NCBI GenBank assembly: GCA_944326825.1
Contig: CALVFL010000029.1
Span: forward strand, 1-62,202
DNA length: 62,202 nt
Source: an uncultured Erysipelotrichaceae bacterium
GTDB taxonomy: Bacteria > Bacillota_I > Bacilli_A > Erysipelotrichales > Erysipelotrichaceae
Reading direction: 5' to 3'
Both the position numbers and the translations under genes were made by a program. Of this stretch, positions 288-40,900 are shown piece by piece; positions within the stretch are counted from its first letter, which is position 1, and each line of letters begins with the position of its first letter. The notes below the pieces were generated by a model, which had not been told where the DNA came from, did not search any database, and saw only the letters and a program-made list of their open reading frames with translations.

Positions 288-536
288 TTAAAAGACATCC
301 TGAGTTATCAGGATGTCTTCGATGTCTGTTTCTAACAGTATTGATAGAGCCAGCAGATTGTCTATGTCCGGTAAAGTATCGCCCCATTGCCATTTGTAGA
401 TAGCCTGCGGCGAAGAGAAACCTAGAGCATCTTGCAGATCCCTGACACTGATGCCTTTGGCTTCACGCAATTTTCTGATGTTTTGTCCGGTTCTGACGAT
501 ATCGACAGTCGGGACTTTGAAATGAACGGTATTCAT
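288..536 (-). CDS. Small XRE-family DNA-binding protein (82 aa)
   Basis: Residues about 15-70 form an HTH_3/XRE helix-turn-helix: GQNIRKLREAKGISVRDLQ, then SSPQAIYKWQWGDTLPDIDN, then a hydrophobic C-terminal helix. Proteins of this size are usually single-domain transcriptional repressors. The start is supported by GGGAGG five nt upstream of the ATG. An extended -10 box (606-614) lies about 70 bp upstream. The last codons form a terminator hairpin. The gene sits between the IS21 end and the 589-bp non-coding element and has no partner gene, so its target is unknown. Confidence 0.8.
   Translation of the reverse strand: MNTVHFKVPTVDIVRTGQNIRKLREAKGISVRDLQDALGFSSPQAIYKWQWGDTLPDIDNLLALSILLETDIEDILITQDVF
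291..318 (-). terminator. Terminator overlapping the 3' end of the XRE gene
   Basis: An 11-bp perfect inverted repeat (AGACATCCTGA 293-303 / TCAGGATGTCT 308-318) lies inside the last codons of the gene. On the minus strand it is followed by TTTTA. Confidence 0.75.
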
Positions 537-618: not shown

Positions 619-1207
619 ACCTGTTCTTTGAATCACAGAGATCGCCCGACTTTTGTTCATCGTACTGAACTTTACTCCTTCTCATATATTCGATCACGTG
701 GGACATAAGGTCTGAGCAAAGGACATGACCCGTTTGCTTCCTTATGCCAACTATGCCACGATAGGATTGCTTACCTACAACTTTCACCCGCTTTCAGATG
801 TTGTATAATCTTTCAGCATTTTAGAGTTAATCAGACTCAACGTGTCGATTTGGGCTACTCGTACACTGCTTTAAGGTCTTATACTGTCTTTCGACATTCA
901 ACGACACTCCGGCTTGGCGGAATTTCTAAGGTTTGCACAAGTTTCCAAGCTTATGCCTAACTCAGATTCATGCAGCTTTTGACTGCCATCTATTAGACCG
1001 CAACCTTTAAGCTATCTTTATGAGCGAAGTCATCAGCGCCAGCTCTTATAGATCGGACAGTTACCCCGACACCTTGAATATCACTATTCAAGATCATTCT
1101 TCAATTAAAAGTATCCCTTTAAAGAAAAATGCTATTTCCAAGCTGCCTCGACTGCTTTGCAAGCAGTTTGCATCGAGCTGACGATCTCTATGTTTCAAAG
1201 AACAGGT
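619..1207 (-). ncRNA. Candidate large structured non-coding RNA (about 589 nt)
   Basis: No convincing protein is encoded here. The ends form a 26-nt near-perfect inverted repeat (619-644 with 1182-1207), which would close the RNA with a long P1 helix. Of its two imperfect pairs, one is U.G if transcribed leftward but C.A if transcribed rightward, favouring the minus strand. Minus-strand hairpins end in GNRA loops: an 8-bp stem with GTGA at about 1075-1094, and TGTC-GAAA-GACA at about 886-897. Other stems include CTGCTT-GCA-AAGCAG near 1152-1166 and a 7-bp stem near 936-957. The length and closed ends recall ROOL-type RNAs, but I cannot assign a class. A short IR-ended mobile element is the alternative. 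Confidence 0.6.
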
Positions 1208-1302
1208 ATATAAGGATATTTACCTTACGCTATAAATAATAACACCACTGTTCAGAGTATGCATTAAACCGGTAGTTTAATATCAGCCTGGCATATCAAA
1301 AA

Positions 1303-4347: not shown

Positions 4348-4464
4348 AGTTTTGCAAACACAAAACTACTATTAAACATATAAAGCGGCTCACCACAAGC
4401 CGCTAATCTTTAAAATAGCAGTCCTGGTTTTATTTAACGACAGGATGGTACAAACGAACTGTCG
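4348..4464 (-). promoter_or_regulatory. Structured leader of the VUT transporter, possible riboswitch
   Basis: In transcript order, a stem CGACAG/CTGTCG (4459-4464 with 4438-4443) has a loop starting TTCGTTTG and is followed by an A-rich stretch containing AAAC that could pair back to GTTT in the loop (H-type pseudoknot). Next comes AGCGGCT/AGCCGCT (4398-4404 with 4384-4390), a terminator-like hairpin with a weak T tract. Last is AGTTTTG/CAAAACT (4361-4367 with 4348-4354) followed by ATTTTTATTT and the ribosome binding site. Small pseudoknots with A-rich tails before preQ1 transporters are typical of preQ1 riboswitches, but the sequence does not match the consensus I know. Confidence 0.4.
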
Positions 4465-4513
4465 GCTTAACGCTCTATCATTTTAAACTAAAACAAGCTT
4501 AAACTCAAATAAA

Positions 4514-4543
4514 AAATGTATGACTTTTAAGATCATACATTTT
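4514..4543 (-). terminator. Terminator of the 83-aa protein gene
   Basis: A 10-bp stem AAATGTATGA / TCATACATTT is followed on the minus strand by a run of T. It lies just past the stop of the gene at 4550. Confidence 0.75.
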
Positions 4544-4549
4544 AGCTGA

Positions 4550-4801
4550 CTATTTCTTGTCTTTGCCTAAGATACCTTCTAAAAGTTCTGAACCTTTTTC
4601 TAAGATCTTATCATCAATGTCAGTCTTATCAAGAACTTCTTTAACTGAATTGCCCAGATTGCCGACTGTTTCGCCAACCTTGTCAAGATCGACTTTGCTG
4701 ACGACATCCTTAGCAGCATCAACTACTTTATCAACGACTTCTGAATCGATGCCTAAGTCTTTTGCCAGGTTCTCAAGACCGCCCTTTTGATTTTCGCTCA
4801 T
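4550..4801 (-). CDS. Small helical protein of unknown function (83 aa)
   Basis: A soluble, acidic, predicted all-helical protein with heptad-like DKVVDAAKDVVSKVDLDKVGE and glycine-containing repeats (GETVGNLGNSV). It has no signal peptide or Cys. I do not recognise a family. Reality is supported by the terminator immediately downstream and by a composition like the neighbouring small helical proteins (for example 30571-31101). The ribosome binding site is weak (GAGAAAAAAAG). Function unknown. Confidence 0.6.
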   Translation of the reverse strand: MSENQKGGLENLAKDLGIDSEVVDKVVDAAKDVVSKVDLDKVGETVGNLGNSVKEVLDKTDIDDKILEKGSELLEGILGKDKK

Positions 4802-4855
4802 CTTTTTTTCTCATTGATCGAAGTTATTATAACAGAATTATCGATAATGTCATGG

Positions 4856-6649
4856 TCAGTTTTCATTGATTGTCACATGCAAAGGATCATGATAGGTGTA
4901 ATCGGTTATGCCTTTGCCGGTATTGGGATAAAAATGGGAATAGATCATATCGATAAAGAATACGACAAGCAGACAAATGCAGACGATCTTTCTTATAAGC
5001 GGATCGATCTTGCGGATAAGGTTATCAAAGACCGGGGCTAAGATATAGACAAAGGCCATGCCGCCAATGCCGAATACTGCCAGACCTTCAGCACAGATCC
5101 GGCCGTTGAGATTTAAGAAATAACCGCTGTAATCCCACCATTTTAGACCGGTATTCATTTCCATGACATAGGAAGTGGTATATTCCAAAACACCGCAAAC
5201 GATTAAGATCAGCAAGAAATTAAGCATCGGTTTATGACGGAACTTCTTTAAAAGCAAGAGGATCAGAATGCCGCCCGAACCATAGATCGGCAGCCAAGGG
5301 CCATGCAAAGCGCCACGATTGACGAACACTCCATCTTTCACAAGATGCAGGCTGACTTCCCAGATCCAGCCGATTCCTGAAAAGATAAAAAACATCAGGA
5401 TCAAAGAGGAGATCGTATAATCCCTTAAAGGATCAAGTCCGCTGTATAAAGCGCTGCGGTCTTTTTCGGCGATCGGAAATAATCGCTTCGGATACTGCCG
5501 GCCTTCTACCACATTGGCAATAGCTTCATATCTTTGAAAAATACGCATCTTTTTCTCATATTCTTTTTCTTCTTTGCCATCTTTAAACAGGATGCCAAAC
5601 CAATTCGCAAAGAAACCTCTGATGCCAGAGAGTTCAGGTACTTCCACATGACGATCTTTGATCTCCGGATAAACTTCTTTTAAGGTCGTGCGGCTTGGCC
5701 TTTCAAAGAGATATACATCATTGAGCAGTGCGACATTCTCTATTTCTTTAGCTTTGGCCTCTTCTCTTAACTTGGCATAATACTCTCCAAAAGTACACAT
5801 CTTATAAGGATTGGAATAAAAGATAGCCGTTAAACCAAAAGTAAATGAAGAAAGCACTGTCCAGCCCAAAAAGGTAACATCGATCTTAAAACATTCCCAC
5901 TTATGACCATCCATCATCTTTCTTGAAAGTGTGATGGCTTCATTGGCTTTGATATCCGGATTTTCGGCAACGATATACGGCACTAAGAAATAAGAATAAT
6001 GTTTGATGAAGATGCCGACGATCGTCAAAGCCCACAGCGATTGATAAACATAGCTTACAAGCATCGTGAAACTGGCCTTCGTCCACCTTTTGACCCTGCT
6101 TAAAAACATATATCTTTCAAAAGGCACTATTTCATAAGTTCTGGCTTCTAAAAATATTCTTCGTAAGATGACTGCAAAAGTATTCTGAACATAAAACCAG
6201 ACCGCAAAGAATAAAAACAAGCCCAAAAGGATCAATATCAAGACAGCCAAACTCTCTGATCCGACCATGGAATTGATGGCGGCTACCAGCGATACATAGA
6301 TCGAGCCAGAGGTAAAGGAATTGACCACCGCAGCCAAAACGCCTCTGCTTCTGCCCAAGATCGGATCATTACTTTGAGCGATCTCTTCTTCTTTGATCTT
6401 TTCAGCATCCTCGCTGCCCTTGGTGAGCTCATCGCCCAGCAGGTCTTTAAAAACTTCTTTTGAACTTAGTTCAGAAGGCAATGATGCCACAGTTTCAGTA
6501 TATGAATCATTATGCACGCTTAAAAGATCCATCGTATCGGAAAACTCGGTAGCGATGAGTCCTGAGATCATGCAGGCCACGATCAAAAAAGCATAGTGTG
6601 CCTTTAATACTTTTTTGCCCTTTTTCTTTAATTCTTTACGGTTTATCAT
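4856..6649 (-). CDS. DUF975 plus CmpB-type (PF06541) membrane fusion protein (597 aa)
   Basis: Two membrane modules are joined. Residues about 1-290 match DUF975: basic MINRKELKKKGKKVLKAHY, then several helices, including the segment EAITLSRKMMDGHKWECFKID. Residues about 420-590 match the putative ABC-transporter type IV / CmpB family, with SGIGWIWEVSLHLVKDGVF, NRGALHGPWLPIYGSGG and a C-terminal VFDNLIRKI. Between them is a soluble linker rich in charged residues. These families are usually separate proteins, and their substrates are unknown. AAGGGGT lies before the ATG. The neighbours are unrelated and no ATPase gene is adjacent. Confidence 0.75.
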   Translation of the reverse strand: MINRKELKKKGKKVLKAHYAFLIVACMISGLIATEFSDTMDLLSVHNDSYTETVASLPSELSSKEVFKDLLGDELTKGSEDAEKIKEEEIAQSNDPILGRSRGVLAAVVNSFTSGSIYVSLVAAINSMVGSESLAVLILILLGLFLFFAVWFYVQNTFAVILRRIFLEARTYEIVPFERYMFLSRVKRWTKASFTMLVSYVYQSLWALTIVGIFIKHYSYFLVPYIVAENPDIKANEAITLSRKMMDGHKWECFKIDVTFLGWTVLSSFTFGLTAIFYSNPYKMCTFGEYYAKLREEAKAKEIENVALLNDVYLFERPSRTTLKEVYPEIKDRHVEVPELSGIRGFFANWFGILFKDGKEEKEYEKKMRIFQRYEAIANVVEGRQYPKRLFPIAEKDRSALYSGLDPLRDYTISSLILMFFIFSGIGWIWEVSLHLVKDGVFVNRGALHGPWLPIYGSGGILILLLLKKFRHKPMLNFLLILIVCGVLEYTTSYVMEMNTGLKWWDYSGYFLNLNGRICAEGLAVFGIGGMAFVYILAPVFDNLIRKIDPLIRKIVCICLLVVFFIDMIYSHFYPNTGKGITDYTYHDPLHVTINEN

Positions 6650-11904: not shown

Positions 11905-12957
11905 TTATTCAGCAGCTTCGCAAGCAGCTACAACAGCAGCGTTAAGATCAACAACGCTCATTGTGCAAGAAGTAGCTAGATCAACTGGTCCGCTATGGTT
12001 TTCAGTATCAAGTTCCATACCTTCAACATCAGCAGCAGTCTTGCCGACTAAGTATTTTTCGTAAGCAGCAGCCTGTTCATACCATTCGCCGCCGCCTTCA
12101 ATGTTACCCATCTGAGCAGAAGTATCTTTCATGCCGTAGTCTTCTTTCTTTTCGACTTTAGTTCTTAAATCAACTGTTTCGGCAGTAGCTTCTGTAGCAC
12201 CAGTAGTAGTGATGTCTTTGATACCCTGTTGAGCAACGTCAACATGAACAGCAACGATCTTGCCGTCAGCATCTAAGGCAACAGCAGCGATAGAAGTGTC
12301 GTATTGAGCTGTACCAGTAGCATCAGCAGTAGCGCTTTCAGCAGTTGGAGAAGTTACGCTGGCAAAACCGAATGTAGCAGCACCGCTAACTTCAGTAGCA
12401 TTTTCGATAGCATTCAAAACAGCTTTGTTGAATTCAGCAACACTGATAGTGCAAGAAGTAGCTAAATCAACCGGGCTTCCATGGTCGCCGCCAAGTTCCA
12501 TACCTTCAACATCAGCAGCAGTCTTGCCGACTAAGTATTCTTCATAAGCAGCAGCCTGTTCGAACCATTCACCGCCGCCTTCAATGTTACCAATCTGAGC
12601 AGAAGTTTCCTTCATGCCATAATCGTTACCTCTGTTTAATTTAGTAGGGATAACATCAGCAGTTACTTCACCAGCAGCTGTCCAGTTAGCAGTTTCCTGA
12701 GCAACGTCGATCTTGACGTCTTTAATAACGCCTTCGCTGTCTAATACAACATAAGCGTATGTAGAGTTGACTTGGAATTCACCTTCCTCATCAGCAGTAG
12801 CGCTAGAAACGCTAACAGAGTTTGAAACACCTAAACCGAATTTAACTGTTTCAGCAGTAGTATCATCACCTGCAGGTGTTTCGTCAGTTGTATTTGAACA
12901 AGCGACTAAACCTACAGCCATCAATACTGTTAATAATAAAGCTAATAATTTTTTCAT
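11905..12957 (-). CDS. Lipoprotein with two tandem FMN-binding-like repeats (350 aa)
   Basis: The signal peptide ends in LVAC (lipobox). The mature part is an internal duplication: residues about 40-185 and 200-350 each contain a DxxGxI strand, DYGMK.TSAQ.GNIEGGGEW, EQAAAYE.YLVGKTAADVEG and a DLATSCT motif near the end. The order of elements resembles extracellular FMN_bind domains, but TSCT stands where SGAT, the flavin-attachment motif, is expected, so this assignment is tentative. Consensus promoter, strong ribosome binding site and alanine-rich, biased codon use suggest high expression. Confidence 0.75.
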   Translation of the reverse strand: MKKLLALLLTVLMAVGLVACSNTTDETPAGDDTTAETVKFGLGVSNSVSVSSATADEEGEFQVNSTYAYVVLDSEGVIKDVKIDVAQETANWTAAGEVTADVIPTKLNRGNDYGMKETSAQIGNIEGGGEWFEQAAAYEEYLVGKTAADVEGMELGGDHGSPVDLATSCTISVAEFNKAVLNAIENATEVSGAATFGFASVTSPTAESATADATGTAQYDTSIAAVALDADGKIVAVHVDVAQQGIKDITTTGATEATAETVDLRTKVEKKEDYGMKDTSAQMGNIEGGGEWYEQAAAYEKYLVGKTAADVEGMELDTENHSGPVDLATSCTMSVVDLNAAVVAACEAAE

Positions 12958-37918: not shown

Positions 37919-40900
37919 TTATTCTGATCTTAAAGCCGCTACCGGATCACTCTTGGCAGCTTTGCGAGATGGGATGATGCCGCCGATCAAAGTCAAGATC
38001 ACGCTTAAAAGGACCAGGATGATCGCTGCTTTAAAAGGCAAGATGGCGCTGACTTCGTTGTTTCCGGCAATCGAATGGATGATGGCGTTGATCGGAACCA
38101 GCAATACTTCCGAAACGATAATACCGATCGCTCCTGCCAAAAAGCCGATGATCATCGTTTCAGCATTGAACACTGAAGAGATATTGCCCTTAGAAGCGCC
38201 GATCGCTCTTAAGATACCGATCTCTTTTCTTCTTTCAAGGACGCTGATATAAGTTATAACTCCGATCATGATGCTGGAAACGATCAAAGAGATAGCCACA
38301 AAAGCGATCAAGACATAAGAAATAACGTTGATGATGTCAGTGACTGATGACATCAAAGTACCTACATAATCCGTATAAGAGATCACTTTATCTTCATCGG
38401 TATTTTCCATCTTGGCATTATAGGCATCAAGATAATCGATCACTTTGCCTTTAGCTTCAAAGTTGAGCGGGTAGATATAGATCGAACTTGGTTCAAAGAG
38501 ATCGACATAACCGAGTTTTTTCAGATTGTTTTCATAAGAAGCGGTATCTTTAGTCATCATACTCATTAAAAGTTCGCTGAATTCTTCTTCATTCATATTA
38601 AAGGAAATCGCTGATATAAAGGCAGTTTCATCAAAACTGACAGCATTTTTAAAGTTAGCGGCGAGATTTCCTATTTGGGCATTGATCTTAGTGCTTATTT
38701 GCGAAAGCACATCGCTCATGATCTCTTTGGTGTAGTTGTTGATGATGACTTCAATATTGTCTTTTAAGACCGTAATGATCTTTTCATTTATACCCGATTC
38801 ATTCAAGAAAGACATGACTGCTTCTTTGATAAAGGTTTGGCCTTCATCAGAGTTAAGATACATCTTAAAGTATTCATCCATAAGATCAGGATCGTTTAGT
38901 CCGTTAGCGAGAAGATAATCTTTAAAATCATCGCTGATGTTTTGAGAAAGCGAGCCAAGATCGAGTTCACTAAAATCAAAATCGATATTTTTGATAATGT
39001 CTTCAACATTTAAAGGCGTAAGCTTGGAAATGTCGATATCGACATCGCTTAAATCGATGGAGCTAAGATCAAGTTTTAATTTAGAAGTATCGATCTTAAA
39101 AGCACTGGCCATCTTATCGGCATCGATACTGATGAGATCATTAAAAGAGATGGTGCTTTCATCATCCGAAGCAAAGCTCTCATTATTAAAGACATCAATA
39201 CTGGGATCAGACAGCTGTTTTTGAACGATCTCGCTGTTTGAAGCTTTATCGATCATCTTATAAGTCAACTCTTTGGTATAACCGATCCCGCTTTTAAGCA
39301 TCGTCGCATTAGCCTCATCACTTGGTTTGATAATGCCGACGATCTTTAAAGTGTCGCTGTTTGCAAGTACTTCTTTCATATACTCGTCATCGCCGCTTTT
39401 ATCGACATAGACACCATATTTTTCATCATAACTGTAATAGGCGCTGGGATCAACTACTTTATATTCGATATTCAAAATGTCATCATAAGTATAGACATCA
39501 TCCGTAGAAGGAACTTTAACATCTTTAGCATTGGCAAAGTCATTGACCATCGCTTCTAAATCATGATAGTCACGAAGTCCCAAAGCATAAAGCATGAAAT
39601 CACTGACCCTCGCACTTTGGCTCAGCACTAAAACCGCTTCATCGGAACTTTGCGGCATTTTGCCGGCTACGACTTCATAAGAATCGGCATATAATGATTC
39701 ATCTTCGGGAAGTTCAAAAAAGACATCCGTACTCATCATTGAAGACATCATGGAATTGTTAGTTTGCGAAGTGCCTAAACCGATACTGTTAAAGGTAGTG
39801 TCGGGATTTACCTGATGAATGTCATTGAGATCGCTGCTATAGATATTTAAAGATACATCATAGTTATATTCGATAGCTTTGGTGTATTCTTTTATGTCAT
39901 GGGAGTTATCCAGATCTTTTTTAAGAGAAGCCAGATCGTTAGAGCCGACATTGGAAAACATGTTGGTCAACATATTGGAAACGAGTATCTCGCCTTCCTT
40001 GGCCTCGCTTTGAATATCCCCCATCGTATCTAACATCATCGAAGTGAAGTCAAAACCGGTATTTTCGATCATTAAAGGATATTCGGAAAGCGTTTCTTCT
40101 TCGATCGAATCGATATAGGTGCTGACACCGGTCGATAGCGACAAGATCAGGGCAATGCCGATAATACCGATCGAGCCGGCAAAAGCTGTTAAAAAGGTGC
40201 GGCCTTTTTTCGTTTTCAGGTTATTGAAGCTCAAAGCTAAAGAAGTCAGAAAAGACATTGATGAGCGTCCGAAGTTCTTATGGATCGGCTCGTCTTCATT
40301 TTTAACTTCATAAGGATCAGAGTCGCTTTGGATCTTGCCGTCTTTGATCTTGACGATCCTTGTGGCATACTTTTGAGCCAGTTCAGGATTATGAGTGACC
40401 ATCACCACCAACTTATCTTTAGCCACTTCTTTTAAAAGATCCATGACCTGAATACTTGTAGTTGTATCAAGAGCGCCTGTTGGCTCATCGGCCAATAAGA
40501 TGTCAGGATCATTGACTAAAGCTCTGGCGATCGCTACTCTTTGCATCTGCCCGCCGGATAACTGATTTGGTTTTTTGTGAGCCTGTTTTAAAAGTCCGAC
40601 TTTATCTAAAGCTTCTTTAGCCTTTCTTTTACGCTCGTCTTTTGAAATACCGCTGATCGTCAAAGCCAGTTCCACATTGGCCAAGATGCTTTGATGAGGG
40701 ATCAGATTATACGACTGGAAGACAAAACCGATCGTATGATTGCGATAAGAATCCCAGTCTTTATCTTTATACTTTTTAGTCGATACCCGATTGATGATAA
40801 GATCGCCGCTGTCATAGTGATCAAGACCGCCGATAATATTCAAAAGCGTCGTCTTGCCGCTGCCGCTTGGTCCTAAGATCGCTACGAACTCATTATCCCT

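Follow-up and report, generated by a model that had tools for sequence, protein, structure and literature searches.

The noncoding element at positions 619 to 1207 of the window, as we call the whole 62,202-nucleotide stretch of Erysipelotrichaceae DNA analyzed here, is, judged by its sequence and with high certainty, a new, full-length member of the known ROOL family of large RNAs. A cmscan search against Rfam returned a single family above its cut-off in the entire window, ROOL (RF03087), which matched the complete model (1-574) on the minus strand with 273.8 bits and an E value of 1.4e-61; membership was defined by the Rfam gathering cut-off of 99.1 bits, applied over the whole model. The original prediction had described a large ornate minus-strand RNA resembling ROOL, and this match bears it out, with boundaries that prove right to a few bases. 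The prediction had also left room for two options, a class not described before or membership in a known one, and the covariance-model match excludes the former and upholds the latter: of the four models it had named (ROOL, GOLLD, OLE, and raiA), ROOL alone passes, and no GOLLD, OLE, or raiA match in the window reaches the Rfam cut-off. The element contains no ORF above 65 aa, in keeping with the expectation that it encodes no protein. As an overall explanation, we regard it as highly probable that this is a ROOL RNA gene transcribed leftward, whose product would assemble into a cage as its relatives do and whose expression would be controlled through a palindrome and an XRE protein.

Table 1. 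Positions of the ROOL RNA, its parts, and linked features (window coordinates unless a locus is named)
Feature	Position	Strand	Evidence or remark
ROOL RNA, full Rfam model span 1-574	628..1201	-	cmscan RF03087, 273.8 bits
P1 5' arm, extended past the Rfam model	1182..1207	-	complementary to 619-644
P1 3' arm	619..644	-	complementary to 1182-1207
Loop L8 (UGGAA), kissing-pair side	943..947	-	covaries with 918-922, 56 distinct sequences
Junction J6/8 (UUCCG), other kissing-pair side	918..922	-	covaries with 943-947
Variable linker	794..850	-	unpaired and unconserved in the model alignment and the 58-sequence alignment
Cro/C1 (XRE) helix-turn-helix gene, 82 aa	288..536	-	Pfam HTH_3 5.9e-9; starts 92 bp past the RNA end
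Intrinsic-terminator-like hairpin and T run, within the XRE 3' end	288..319	-	12-nt perfect inverted repeat 292-303/308-319
Palindrome ATTAAACNNNNNGTTTAAT, candidate operator	1263..1281	.	62 bp upstream of the ROOL model start; also before the G001 and G008 ROOLs
XRE genes before tRNAs, eight family genomes	L116-L121, L123, L129, about position 1500 (L121 about 1273)		

The fold that the model implies is well accommodated by the window RNA, in which 132 of 152 model pairs form standard pairs; 2000 shuffles of the sequence averaged 58 such pairs and never exceeded 78. The near-perfect 26-nt closing helix that had been noticed at the ends of the element, complementary throughout save for a single A-A mismatch, corresponds to ROOL helix P1 with a few extra outer pairs, and a looser similarity between the arms reaches 603-644 and 1182-1223 (79%). 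Both arguments that had been made for the minus strand held up: one position of this helix is a U-G pair in the minus-strand RNA and C-A on the plus strand, and the GNRA loops lie on the minus strand (GAAA in GUCGAAAGAC and GUGA in GAAUAGUGAUAUUC). The minus strand is likewise favored by the folding energies and their z-scores, which are -200.1 kcal/mol (z -7.3) for the minus strand and -159 kcal/mol (z -5.0) for the plus strand.

Within its own 1.38 Mb Erysipelotrichaceae MAG assembly the element is single-copy, and two other genomes of the genus, G001 and G008, carry copies that are 75-77% identical to it, so that ROOL is present in 3 of 9 genomes of the genus; in the family it is found in 14 of 196 genomes, with 15 copies. 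The outer part of P1 (ACCTGT..ACAGGT) is common to the window and G001 and absent from G008. The identity of the window RNA to ROOLs outside the genus is only about 40-44%, and we found no close nucleotide relatives in phage and plasmid records. We assembled a wider ROOL set by scanning viral and genome collections for a 25-nt ROOL motif, which yielded 37 viral and 24 genome contigs. All 33 of the scanned viral loci and 10 of the 15 newly scanned genome loci contained a ROOL above the cut-off, these loci having been picked by the motif, and many of the viral ROOLs obtained in this way sit among tRNA genes, in agreement with published work (PMC12286853).

Several loci of this wider set had features of their own. 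A Clostridia MAG contains two tandem ROOLs on the same strand, with scores of 161 and 219 bits (L094:3696-4343 and 4463-4998). One viral contig carries both a ROOL and a GOLLD RNA (L052:7558-8229 and 12269-12780) inside a large tRNA array, together with a match to drum RNA, and in two other viral contigs tmRNA matches lie about 1 kb or less from the ROOL (L050:3098-3399 and L072:7662-7963).

We assessed covariation in 58 ROOL sequences, 56 of them distinct, by aligning them with MAFFT and projecting the Rfam structure through the window sequence. The score over the whole structure was 0.344, compared to 0.162 for shuffled sequences and at most 0.167 when partners were slid by 1-3 columns; the alignment is not structure-fitted, and visible misalignment of its outer helices depresses these whole-structure numbers rather than inflating them. 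The outer P1 pairs in particular are poorly aligned in the 58 sequences and have low per-column counts. The kissing pair between loop L8 and junction J6/8 covaried as well, with 86% of cells paired and a score of 0.411 versus 0.184 for shuffled and at most 0.100 for slid partners. Its central position is paired in 55 of 55 sequences, as UA in 28, CG in 21, AU in 5, and UG in 1, and in the window the pair reads GGAA/UUCC. Within the genus, comparison of the window with G001 and G008 revealed 36 double changes that keep pairing against 26 losses.

ROOL relatives are known to assemble hollow, RNA-only cages (Kretsch et al. 2025, PMC12286853), and these published structures suggest that the window RNA probably forms a cage as well. 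An RNA of about 574-590 nt would fold unaided and would then assemble, through loop-loop and A-minor contacts, into a closed homo-oligomeric cage (a hexamer or an octamer). The variable linker would be enclosed within this cage, as published structures show the ROOL linker to be disordered in the cage interior (PMC12286853). In the octameric cage described there, J6/8 and L8 form kissing pair B4, a conserved contact between molecules that joins neighboring copies and whose importance has been reported (Kretsch et al. 2025, PMC12286853). By position and complementarity, we assign the L8-J6/8 pair of the window to this quaternary bridge, and the exchange of pair types across 55 sequences provides independent support for the loop-loop contact on which the cohesion of the cage depends.

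The window ROOL apparently lies on ordinary chromosomal DNA. Nearby genes encode a hydrophobic 111-aa protein, a DUF308 protein, a deaminase-like protein, a short-chain dehydrogenase, a Vut_1 transporter, and ABC-type membrane proteins. There are no phage structural genes among the checked neighbors, on which ground we rejected a phage origin of the locus, and there are no tRNA genes in the window. The phage or tRNA-array setting, which is the one most often reported for ROOL without defining it, is thus lacking, a point that counts against the overall explanation, and non-prophage regions have also been listed for ROOL (CASP16 report, PMC12191101). In G001 several of the same genes are found near ROOL in another order, with ROOL and an XRE gene remaining together. 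At positions 60-207 of the window there is a repeat containing GGTGGCAC that occurs in seven places in the genome, several of them at contig ends, and it probably marks the end of an insertion sequence at which the assembly broke off.

The XRE gene downstream of the window ROOL has counterparts at other ROOL loci. A gene of the same subfamily lies downstream on the same strand about 94 bp away in G001, 59 bp away in G155, and 59 and 42 bp away at two loci of G217, with an overall spacing of about 40-95 bp 3' of the RNA. This arrangement accounts for 5 of the 15 family ROOLs, from two genera, the second of which contributes three loci (in G155 and G217), and, given the relatedness of the linked genomes, these counts do not represent independent events. 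In G001 and G155, as in the window, the XRE gene has a terminator-like hairpin within its 3' end. In G008 the XRE profile matches a larger gene on the opposite strand, convergent with ROOL and 65 bp downstream of it; besides this one, only three further matches occur elsewhere in the 58 ROOL loci, all of them several kb off.

A similar arrangement occurs on the Lactobacillus salivarius (L. salivarius) megaplasmid, where cmscan placed a ROOL on the minus strand of L109 at 38264-38806 (130.4 bits), and an HTH gene that matches the same XRE profile with 76.8 bits lies 78 bp downstream on the same strand. This HTH gene has already been published (Cousin et al. 2017, PMC5643018), and its transcript behaves as a separate unit (PMC5643018). 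We also found relatives of the window XRE gene beside tRNA genes. Of its 30 closest family homologs, eight precede tRNA genes on the same strand by 30-117 bp; the flank holds 5 to 16 tRNAs in seven of these cases and just one in the eighth, and in one such genome, G031, a ROOL is located further along the same contig. The flanks of ten weaker XRE homologs contained no tRNAs. In viral contigs only three XRE relatives turned up, none of them accompanied by a ROOL and just one lying near tRNAs. We found no mention of the recurrence of ROOL with XRE across lineages, or of the tRNA-array link, in the literature searched, outside which two key papers fall (Weinberg 2017 and Ling 2025); both observations may therefore add to what is known, and an earlier mention is possible.

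At all three ROOL copies of the genus, the 19-bp palindrome ATTAAACNNNNNGTTTAAT precedes the start of the ROOL model by about 60-80 nt, within sequence that is otherwise poorly conserved. It occurs once in the genome of the window, once in G001, and twice in G008, and three genomes of the genus that lack ROOL also lack the palindrome. The second G008 copy (C29:7734-7752, or L031:1735-1753) is about 60 bp before a 407-aa ORF that has no Pfam match, and it is possible that this is a second target of the same regulator. In the second genus, a different palindrome, TTAGTTNNNNNNAACTAA, is conserved at about -120 at all three loci. Neither the L. salivarius ROOL nor the XRE genes at tRNA arrays have a palindrome of the genus type in front of them, and an operator shared across lineages is thus not supported.

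Judging from the anatomy of the locus alone, transcription would start upstream of P1 near the palindrome, ROOL would be released as a stable and abundant RNA, and the small XRE protein, whose gene lies right after it, would bind the palindrome and so control ROOL. The palindromes of both genera are presumed binding sites of the XRE protein. The palindrome is also present in G008, where the XRE gene is convergent and of another size, and control by the XRE protein is therefore only putative. ROOL and the XRE gene may together form a module, the regulation of which we infer.

Other explanations of the element fared less well. Complementary ends and the lack of an ORF could also describe a short inverted-repeat transposable element, and the original prediction had pointed out that many identical copies with target duplications would indicate one. 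However, there are no such copies in the genome, where the element is single, its counterparts elsewhere are diverged rather than identical, and it matches the full ROOL model; we therefore rejected this explanation, which is highly improbable. We rejected, as equally improbable, a new class of large RNA that merely resembles ROOL. The low identity to ROOLs outside the genus would fit such a class, but other accepted ROOLs are equally divergent, and the full-length match to RF03087 exceeds the curated cut-off by 175 bits.

It is also conceivable, if unlikely, that the element is the decayed, nonfunctional remnant of a ROOL that came with a phage or mobile element since lost. The neighbors that we checked include no phage structural genes, the contig ends in repeated IS-like sequence just past the XRE gene, and the gene order around ROOL differs from that of G001, all of which speak for such a remnant. 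Against decay, the helices and the kissing pair have been kept by compensatory changes relative to G001 and G008 despite their divergence, and both the XRE reading frame and the palindrome are preserved. Variation among homologs without compensatory pairing had been named beforehand as evidence against a structured RNA, and the ROOL homologs do show compensatory pairing.

The window RNA shares with the ROOLs of env-120, Enterococcus faecalis (E. faecalis), and L. salivarius (PMC12286853, PMC12191101) the full model, P1, the multi-junction fold, the variable linker, the L8-J6/8 pair, and a size of about 580 nt. Unlike them, it lies outside any tRNA array or recognizable phage, has a longer P1, and is flanked by an XRE gene and a palindrome. 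A parallel in setting is the UCC118 lncRNA of L. salivarius, itself a ROOL, which is also carried on a non-phage replicon with a same-subfamily XRE gene downstream on the same strand; that RNA is stable, nonessential, and as abundant as 16S rRNA in that species (Cousin 2017, PMC5643018). The UCC118 ROOL differs in its megaplasmid location, as opposed to an apparently chromosomal one here, in its lower score, and in an upstream region without the genus-type palindrome. GOLLD RNA (RF02032) is likewise large, phage-linked, and cage-forming, although it belongs to another family without a match in the window. OLE RNA, a protein-linked dimer (PMC12286853), is alike in size class only and also has no match in the window.

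To a specialist, the linked regulator may be the unexpected part of this locus. With a regulator gene beside it and a candidate operator, a ROOL outside phages offers a concrete genetic entry point, which the copies in phage tRNA arrays do not. More tentatively, and with considerable doubt, we suggest that non-phage ROOLs could be regulated two-part modules, consisting of a cage RNA and a dedicated XRE protein that acts on a palindromic operator, and that the same XRE subfamily could govern phage-type tRNA arrays. If true, ROOL and tRNA arrays would belong to a single type of regulon, which would provide a handle on the function of ROOL.
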